A stretch of 59,639 nucleotides of DNA from an uncultured Gammaproteobacteria bacterium (GTDB taxonomy: Bacteria; Pseudomonadota; Gammaproteobacteria; Steroidobacterales; Woeseiaceae). Of this stretch, positions 41,552-44,186 are shown in pieces (the stretch's first letter is position 1; every line of letters begins with the position of its first letter). The notes beneath the pieces are model-generated. The model made no database searches. It was not told the origin of the DNA and worked only from the letters and a program-made list of their open reading frames with translations. Both the position numbers and the translations under genes were made by a program. The stretch lies in contig CAJXYT010000005.1 of assembly GCA_913063505.1 (NCBI GenBank), forward strand, positions 1-59,639, written 5' to 3'.

Positions 41552-42223
41552 ATGATTCAACTCGATAACGTTACAAAGCGATTCCCTGGTGGGCAGGAAG
41601 CAATATCGGGCCTGAGCCTGTCTATAGACAAGGGCGAAATGGTTTTCGTTACCGGTCACTCGGGCGCGGGTAAGAGTACTTTGCTTCGCCTGATCGCTCT
41701 AATTGAGCGACCAAGCGATGGTCAGGTTATCGTCGACAATCAGAACACACGGCGAGTCAAACGTCGAAAAATTCCCGCATACAGGCGGCAGATTGGCATG
41801 GTTTTTCAGGACCACAAACTGCTTTATGATCGCCCGGTCTTTGACAATGTCGCGTTACCTCTGATCATCGCAGGAGTCAGTTACCGCGATGCAGGCCGCC
41901 GAGTCAGGGCGGCTCTTGACCAGGTGAGTTTGCTGCATAAGGAAAAACAGCGGCCGGAGACCCTGTCTGCAGGAGAGCAGCAGCGCGTCGGTATTGCCCG
42001 GGCGATCGTCACGAGACCGAAGTTGTTGATTGCTGATGAACCGACTGGAAACCTCGATCCTGATCTATCGCTTGAAGTCATGCGGATTTTTCGTCGTTTC
42101 AATGAAGTGGGTGTGACTCTTCTAATCGCCAGCCATGACATTACGTTGATTGACCGTCTTGGATGCCGGCGAATTGCGCTGGAAGACGGCAAATTGCAGC
42201 AGCAGGCGGATCCATGGCAATAA
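41552..42223 (+). CDS. ftsE: cell division ATP-binding protein FtsE
   Basis: GHSGAGKSTLL, QIGMVFQDHKLL, LSAGEQQRVGIARAIV. Confidence 0.95.
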   Translation: MIQLDNVTKRFPGGQEAISGLSLSIDKGEMVFVTGHSGAGKSTLLRLIALIERPSDGQVIVDNQNTRRVKRRKIPAYRRQIGMVFQDHKLLYDRPVFDNVALPLIIAGVSYRDAGRRVRAALDQVSLLHKEKQRPETLSAGEQQRVGIARAIVTRPKLLIADEPTGNLDPDLSLEVMRIFRRFNEVGVTLLIASHDITLIDRLGCRRIALEDGKLQQQADPWQ

Positions 42224-43179
42224 CGAGAAATGTAGATGCTGTCGCTCCTGTTCGCTCCTCGGGTGCCTTTAGTATTTGGTTGACGAGGCACACGAGCACT
42301 TCGTTGGGTGCGCTTGGGCGATTGTCGCGGCAGCCATTCGCCAGCCTTATGATCATCCTAGTTATCGGAGTTACATTAGCGCTGCCAGCTGCGATTAATG
42401 TCATTGTAAAAAACATGCAATCGGTTAGTGATAGCTGGAGCAATGCGCTCGATTTCTCGATGTACTTAAAAAAAGACCTGTCGGTAAGCGATGCTGAAGA
42501 TCTGGCTAATTTGATAAGGCAACGTGCAGATATCGAATCGGTCGGCCTCGTAACGGCTGATGAAGCACTGCTCGAGTTCAAAAAACAGTCAGGCTTCGGT
42601 GAGGCACTCAATCAGCTTAGTGAGAATCCCTTACCACACGCCCTTATCGTACGGCCAAGCTCGGGCAATACCGGTGCCTCGCTGACCCTCCTTCAAGAAG
42701 AAATCGGAAACCTACCCGAAACGGAACTGGTTCAGGTTGATACTGAGTGGGTGCAACGATTCCATGCCATTCTCAACATTGTCAGCCAGGCCATCTCGAT
42801 CGGTGCTGTCTTGCTTGGTATCGCCATCGTCGTAATCATCGGCAATACCATTCGCCTCGATATTGAAAACCGGCGTGAAGAAATTGAGGTCACAAAGCTC
42901 ATCGGCGCGAGCAACGCATTTGTTCGTCGACCCTTCTTGTGGACTGGATTCTGGTACGGCCTGCTAGGCGGCGCCTTTGCGTTGCTCTTGGTTCAATACG
43001 GGCTTTACTTGCTACGAGAGCCTGTCAGCCGACTCGCCGGCCTGTATCAGGGCAAGATCGCTGTAGCATCGCTCACAATTACCGAGAGTGCAGCGATCAT
43101 CGGCGTAGCCGTATTTCTCGGCCTTTTCGCCTCCTGGGTGACGGCGGCGCGACATATGCGGCGAATTGAGCCTCGATAA
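42214..43179 (+). CDS. ftsX: cell division permease FtsX
   Basis: Four hydrophobic segments, NRREEIEVTKLIGASNAFVRRPFLWTG; follows ftsE. Confidence 0.93.
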   Translation: MAITRNVDAVAPVRSSGAFSIWLTRHTSTSLGALGRLSRQPFASLMIILVIGVTLALPAAINVIVKNMQSVSDSWSNALDFSMYLKKDLSVSDAEDLANLIRQRADIESVGLVTADEALLEFKKQSGFGEALNQLSENPLPHALIVRPSSGNTGASLTLLQEEIGNLPETELVQVDTEWVQRFHAILNIVSQAISIGAVLLGIAIVVIIGNTIRLDIENRREEIEVTKLIGASNAFVRRPFLWTGFWYGLLGGAFALLLVQYGLYLLREPVSRLAGLYQGKIAVASLTITESAAIIGVAVFLGLFASWVTAARHMRRIEPR

Positions 43180-43267
43180 CTGGATATAACGCAACTCTTA
43201 GATACACTTAAATATCTGTTTTCTATAACAATATCACCTAATGTACTAGGGGAACTTATAGTAGTTG

Positions 43268-43294
43268 TTAGCACTCTAACCTCCTGAGTGCTAA
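43268..43294. promoter_or_regulatory. CIRCE element (HrcA operator) upstream of rpoH
   Basis: Exact TTAGCACTC-N9-GAGTGCTAA (TTAGCACTC TAACCTCCT GAGTGCTAA). Confidence 0.93.
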
Positions 43295-43322
43295 AATTGA
43301 CGCCTACAAACGGAGGCATTAC

Positions 43323-44186
43323 ATGACAACCGCTGCTCTGAAATCCAACTATGACCTAGCGCTGGCAGGACCAGTAGGTAGCCTTGACAGCTATATCCAG
43401 GCTGTTGGCGGTATATCCGTGCTGAGCCGGGAAGACGAGCAAGTACTGGCATGCCGCCTGCGCGATAACGAGGATCTCGATGCCGCTCGTGATCTGGTTA
43501 TGGCTCACCTCAGATTCGTTATTCATATTGCCAAGGGATACACCGGTTACGGCCTACCCCTGAACGATCTGATTCAAGAAGGCAATGTTGGTCTGATGAA
43601 GGCCGTCAAGCGCTTCGACCCTGAATACGGCGTTCGACTGGTTTCATTTGCGGTCCACTGGATTCGTGCAGAAATTCACGAGTTCGTTTTGAAGAACTGG
43701 CGCATCGTCAAAGTCGCAACAACCAAAGCGCAACGAAAGTTGTTTTTTAATCTTCGTAAGAAGAAAAAAACACTGTCCTGGTTGACGGATGCTGAAACCA
43801 AGGCCATTGCGAAAGATCTCGGCGTTAAGCCACAAGAAGTTTCGGAAATGGAGAAGCGCCTGCATTCGCGGGATGCGATTTTCGATCCAACTCCTGATAT
43901 GGATGACGAGCGAAACTTTACGCCAGCCGCCTACTTGCCAAGCCCAGATGCAGATCCAGCCAAGCAAGTTGAAGCCTCGGACTGGAATGAAAATACGACT
44001 ACCCGCATGAGGGCCGCTTTGAATATTCTTGACGACCGTAGCCGCCGAATTCTCGAAGAGCGTTGGCTCACTGAAGACAAGATGACATTGCACGAGCTAG
44101 CAGCGGAATATGGAATATCTGCTGAGCGCATTCGTCAACTCGAGGTCAATGCGATTAAGAAGTTAAGTAACGCGATGGGCGTATAG
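43323..44186 (+). CDS. rpoH: heat-shock sigma factor RpoH (sigma 32)
   Basis: DLIQEGNVGLMKAVKRFDPEYGVRLVSFAVHWIRAEI and RpoH box QRKLFFNLR. Confidence 0.96.
   Translation: MTTAALKSNYDLALAGPVGSLDSYIQAVGGISVLSREDEQVLACRLRDNEDLDAARDLVMAHLRFVIHIAKGYTGYGLPLNDLIQEGNVGLMKAVKRFDPEYGVRLVSFAVHWIRAEIHEFVLKNWRIVKVATTKAQRKLFFNLRKKKKTLSWLTDAETKAIAKDLGVKPQEVSEMEKRLHSRDAIFDPTPDMDDERNFTPAAYLPSPDADPAKQVEASDWNENTTTRMRAALNILDDRSRRILEERWLTEDKMTLHELAAEYGISAERIRQLEVNAIKKLSNAMGV

Follow-up and report, generated by a model that had tools for sequence, protein, structure and literature searches.

Genes and operator at the locus

The window analysed here (the whole stretch of 59,639 nucleotides) carries on its forward strand the rpoH gene, encoding sigma-32 (43323..44186). 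Its 287-amino-acid product passes the NCBIfam RpoH equivalog TIGR02392 with 395 bits, for a cut-off of 323, and the named relatives of the gene are Woeseiaceae metagenome bins. A likely Shine-Dalgarno sequence, GGAGG, lies on the same strand at 43312..43316, and the gene found 5' of rpoH, also in forward orientation, is ftsX (42163..43179, TIGR00439 above cut-off; its true start may be further in than the start of the open reading frame). The ftsX-rpoH neighbourhood is thus that of E. coli, where the order is ftsE-ftsX-rpoH.

Pattern matching in the window identified the exact sequence TTAGCACTC-TAACCTCCT-GAGTGCTAA on the forward strand at 43268..43294, a perfect 9-9-9 inverted repeat that agrees at every arm position with the operator of the HrcA/CIRCE regulon, TTAGCACTC-N9-GAGTGCTAA, and that we annotate as a predicted HrcA operator. 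The rpoH start codon, ATG at 43323, follows after 28 bases (43295-43322), the distance that the earlier note on this DNA had stated. With up to three mismatches allowed, this CIRCE is the single match in the window, for 0.01 expected from dinucleotide shuffles; an exact match at all 18 arm positions would be expected about 2e-5 times by chance in a genome of 1.45 Mb.

The assembly is 90% complete and, at 1.45 Mb, small compared with most relatives (most others have 2.3 to 5.4 Mb). Scanned as a whole with up to three mismatches, it contains two CIRCEs, the perfect one at rpoH and another at groESL that is one base off perfect, and none at hrcA-grpE-dnaK. The earlier note made its reading depend on the presence of hrcA elsewhere in the genome, and an intact copy is there (equivalog TIGR00331, 332 bits for a cut-off of 197), followed by grpE and dnaK. 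Across the family, hrcA is present in 90 of 101 genomes.

Is the operator kept before the same gene in relatives? In a family sample of 87 rpoH upstream regions, chosen without regard to content, 86 have a CIRCE with at most one mismatch and 76 a perfect one. In the exception (L177, from genome G039, which has hrcA), the two intact arms are only 8 bases apart. The arms are near-invariant, most spacer positions vary, and by this measure the rpoH CIRCE is under strong selection.

Several variants were seen among these loci. An 8-base rather than 9-base spacer between intact arms also occurs at L067, and one and the same single right-arm change, from GAGTGCTAA to GACTGCTAA, with a perfect left arm, is found in genus g5 (L168-L173) and in genomes G021, G045 and G055. 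CIRCE also precedes rpoH in Kangiellaceae (Aliikangiella) and in Marinifaba, at times in two copies: tandem CIRCE-like palindromes occur at L103, L109 and L110 (Aliikangiella and uncultured Kangiellaceae) and at L108 (Marinifaba aquimaris), and the element 5' of the first palindrome reads GAAACTT in L103 and L110 and GGAACTT in L108. Two genomes (L224 in G050, L225 in G096) encode a further rpoH-like gene that has diverged to about 51% identity and has no CIRCE; the CTTGAAA-like sequence upstream of it is possibly of sigma-32 type.

Predicted promoter elements merged with the CIRCE

The CIRCE shares bases with two predicted promoters on the forward strand. The first has a sigma-E-type -35 element, GGAACTT, at 43251..43257, 10 bp 5' of the CIRCE, and a sigma-E-type -10 element, TCTAA, at 43275..43279, where the final TC of the left arm runs on into TAA, the opening three bases of the spacer. 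The resulting GGAACTT-N17-TCTAA (43251-43279) agrees with the AlgU/sigma-E consensus GAACTT-N16/17-TCTNN (PMC7641640) in its -35, its -10 and its spacing. The second is a putative sigma-70 extended -10, TGCTAAAAT, at 43289..43297, formed by the right arm of the CIRCE together with the AAT that follows it. Its hexamer TAAAAT (43292-43297), proposed in the earlier note as a possible -10 overlapping the CIRCE, was also picked by a separate consensus scan, which pairs it over 18 bases with the candidate sigma-70 -35 TTAGCA at 43268-43273 (9 of 12 positions, with TG before the -10). This second set matches the sigma-70 extended -10 pattern, a TGnTATAAT-like box preceded by a -35 at a distance of 16-18 bp.

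Both sets of flanking bases are kept in the family. Of 86 relatives, 75 have GGAAC or TGAAC with its first base 16 or 17 positions ahead of the CIRCE, so that the distance from GGAAC to TCTAA varies by one base (N16 in 27 members, N17 in 48). The -10 is worded TCTAA in 56 and TCCAA in 15 of the 86 sites, and the spacer begins with YAA (TAA or CAA) in 71. On the other side, AAT directly follows the right arm in 75/86 rpoH sites, and the full TGCTAAAAT is found in 74/86. A different register was observed at L246 (G188), where GGAACTT lies nearer the CIRCE and a GGAACTT-N17-TCTGA uses the end of the spacer and the right arm.

The family's own rpoE genes provide a reference for the sigma-E-type motif. 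All 22 Woeseiaceae rpoE loci are preceded by GAACTT-N16-TCTAY, with GAACTT or GAACTA as the -35, in a search whose -10 pattern was relaxed to TCTNN after viewing the alignment, since requiring A at its position 5 matched almost nothing. The motif in this apparent autopromoter supports the view that the sigma-E of Woeseiaceae reads such a sequence.

The groES CIRCEs of the family serve as a control. GGAAC, YAA at the start of the spacer and AAT after the CIRCE are each found in 0 of 29 Woeseiaceae groES sites; the flanking motifs are thus peculiar to the rpoH sites and do not belong to CIRCE as such. These groES sites lie 3' of CTTGAAAT...CCTAT, a sigma-32-like promoter. We also considered a sigma-32 promoter at rpoH and rejected it: we saw no CTTGAA...CCCCAT-like site there, whereas groESL has one.

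Apparent loss of rpoE and the alternatives to a composite promoter

Which sigma factor would use this promoter in the source organism? A search for RpoE in the 90%-complete genome found none, and the TIGR02937 profile retrieved RpoD and RpoH only, while most larger relatives do encode the sigma-E protein. In the latter the gene order is sdhB-sdhE-cptA-rpoE-rseA-rseB. A single contig of the source genome has sdhB, an sdhE-like frame, a broken cptA remnant, an rseC-like gene and lepA, and rpoE-rseA-rseB appears to be deleted rather than unassembled. The gap between sdhE and the rseC-like gene is at about 6963-7400 of contig C7 (L266). With these genes missing, the likely active rpoH promoter here would be the sigma-70 one, wholly overlapped by the CIRCE, and HrcA most likely gates that promoter in the source genome.

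RpoE was searched for in 66 family genomes, and the motif was compared between 54 with RpoE and 11 without detected RpoE. GAAC near the CIRCE, counted within a window from -20 to -9, is present in 51 of the 54 and in 3 of the 11 (Fisher 4.7e-6, a value that ignores kinship and overstates independence, the genomes lacking rpoE being few and partly related). A strict test for GGAAC at exactly -17, which ignores the one-base variation in spacing, gave p=0.10; the window count, produced alongside it, was put to the test afterwards. Three genomes with rpoE lack the GAAC motif. In genus g5 (one genome of which is 99% complete), RpoE was undetected, and GGAAC and TCTAA are gone before rpoH; the CIRCE, with one mismatch, and AAT are retained. 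G056 and G031 show the same pattern, their sigma-E motif gone and their CIRCE kept. Relatives without rpoE have mostly lost GGAAC yet kept the CIRCE. The source genome and G064, where canonical RpoE is absent, keep GGAACTT-N17-TCTAA intact. This sigma-E half is probably a relic in the source genome, and its intactness suggests a recent loss of rpoE, as a pure relic model requires.

Taken together, we consider it very likely that a working HrcA operator lies over the rpoH core promoter, in which a sigma-E-type promoter is merged with a sigma-70 extended -10. The intact GGAACTT-N17-TCTAA of a source genome lacking rpoE, the one-base difference between N16 and N17 members and the three rpoE-bearing genomes that lack the motif speak against it. 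Alternatively, HrcA may repress a promoter of sigma-70 alone (TTAGCA-N18-TAAAAT), the likeness of GGAAC and TCTAA to sigma-E elements being incidental. The consensus scan picks exactly this pair, TGCTAAAAT has the wide distribution given above, and AAT is kept in the source genome, G056 and genus g5 despite their lack of rpoE. However, GGAAC lies outside the operator, is held at a fixed spacing, tracks the presence of rpoE and equals the core of the rpoE autopromoter; rpoH of Shewanella is moreover described as being under sigma-E control (PMC4336711). We regard an exclusively sigma-70 promoter as unlikely.

Could the rpoH CIRCE be a non-functional remnant in a reduced genome? The small genome size and the loss of rpoE-rseA-rseB speak for it, but the CIRCE is perfect at 18/18 positions both here and in the reduced-genome relatives G064 and G056, in the latter although the sigma-E -35 has decayed, and hrcA is intact; this makes a remnant very improbable. 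We give hardly any credence to the CIRCE working in the mRNA, as a 5' hairpin that affects how stable or how well translated the rpoH message is, instead of as an operator in the DNA. Its inverted repeats are able to form hairpins, and the CCTCC of the source genome's spacer might base-pair with GGAGG, the ribosome site. However, the predicted starts lie inside or 3' of the CIRCE, which would leave the transcript with an incomplete hairpin; the CCTCC is unconserved among relatives in a variable spacer; and the arms hold the exact HrcA consensus in place of compensatory changes. A thermosensor reading was rejected on the same grounds of start position and spacer variability.

A proposed repressor above sigma-32 in Gammaproteobacteria

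Accounts of bacterial heat shock usually treat HrcA repression and sigma-32 as alternative circuits, E. coli being the model for sigma-32. To survey the class, we ran a pattern search on 369 Gammaproteobacteria genomes, obtained matches in 95 and then assigned the downstream genes. CIRCEs precede rpoH in 59 cases (44 families), groES in 40 and hrcA in 7. GAAC lies at the right distance in 50/59 rpoH sites versus 1/40 groES sites; the pattern itself contained GGAAC, which enriches the sample for motif-bearing sites, and the groES sites passed an equal filter. The predicted CIRCE/sigma-E composite at rpoH is widespread in Gammaproteobacteria, and the rpoH CIRCE looks like old shared wiring that is absent from E. 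coli, not the quirk of one organism.

The idea of a CIRCE at rpoH is not new, since Rodionov et al. listed one in Geobacter sulfurreducens in 2004 (PMC545781, Table 8). As here, that CIRCE is perfect, lies close before rpoH (position -51) and is accompanied by another at groESL. Geobacter is, however, a Deltaproteobacterium for which a single genome is listed, no sigma-E promoter is described with the CIRCE, and hrcA-grpE-dnaK also has a CIRCE, unlike in the source genome (PMC545781). Our literature search found no report of a gammaproteobacterial rpoH CIRCE or of its fusion to sigma-E elements, which is weak evidence, and an earlier precedent is possible.

The sigma-E promoter P3 of E. coli rpoH (TTGAACTT-N16-TCTGA in MG1655) has the same GAACTT -35 and the same ftsE-ftsX-rpoH neighbourhood but no CIRCE, and a search for the HrcA family in E. 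coli, run as a control, gave no match. In Shewanella oneidensis, rpoH is reported to be RpoE-regulated, with a predicted GAACTT...TCTAT promoter, and the available part of that report does not mention an HrcA operator (PMC4336711). Classical HrcA/CIRCE control of groESL involves the same operator, from which the source genome's groESL copy differs by one base; there, however, the CIRCE lies 3' of a sigma-32-like promoter, whereas at rpoH it is merged with sigma-E-type and sigma-70-type elements.

From these sites we propose the following model. In Woeseiaceae and many other gammaproteobacteria, the CIRCE would lie over a sigma-E promoter of the form GGAACTT-N16/17-TCTAA, which would be overlapped by a sigma-70-type extended -10 that the right arm makes with AAT. 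HrcA bound to the CIRCE would cover the sigma-E -10 as well as the sigma-70 -10 and -35, and so block polymerase at both start sites. Release of HrcA occurs through heat and competition for GroE. Under cytosolic folding stress, titration of GroE would thus free rpoH for expression and, where sigma-E exists, output would be strongest when envelope stress is added. HrcA would be placed above sigma-32, and groESL, which has a CIRCE of its own behind a sigma-32-like promoter, would answer to both. That HrcA binds and represses, which sigma factor is used and where transcription starts are all predicted from the DNA sequence, which is best read as an action of HrcA on rpoH; the rpoH CIRCE is real, most likely functional, and one element of an arrangement that is old and shared.

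The earlier note had proposed that HrcA represses sigma-32 itself in this organism. The presence of hrcA, the groESL CIRCE and the conservation in relatives favour that reading; what does not stand is that the cascade is special to the source organism, given the 59 rpoH loci in 44 families and the Geobacter case. Its contrast with enterobacterial control of rpoH was likewise incomplete, as it overlooked the sigma-E-type promoter, of the E. coli P3 kind, with which the CIRCE is merged.

How might the two schemes be related? We lean slightly towards an ancestral gammaproteobacterial rpoH promoter in which a sigma-E promoter and an HrcA operator shared bases, so that sigma-32 synthesis was gated as 'envelope stress AND NOT HrcA'. 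The P3 of E. coli would then be what remained after HrcA was lost, and the reduced Woeseiaceae (the source genome and g5) would be the mirror case, with sigma-E lost and HrcA control kept. This lends itself to a comparative test: lineages without sigma-E or without HrcA should let the matching half of the promoter decay, as the sigma-E half is seen to do. If the composite promoter works in the way its sequence suggests, many gammaproteobacteria would place HrcA above sigma-32, and the wiring of E. coli would be a derived state.
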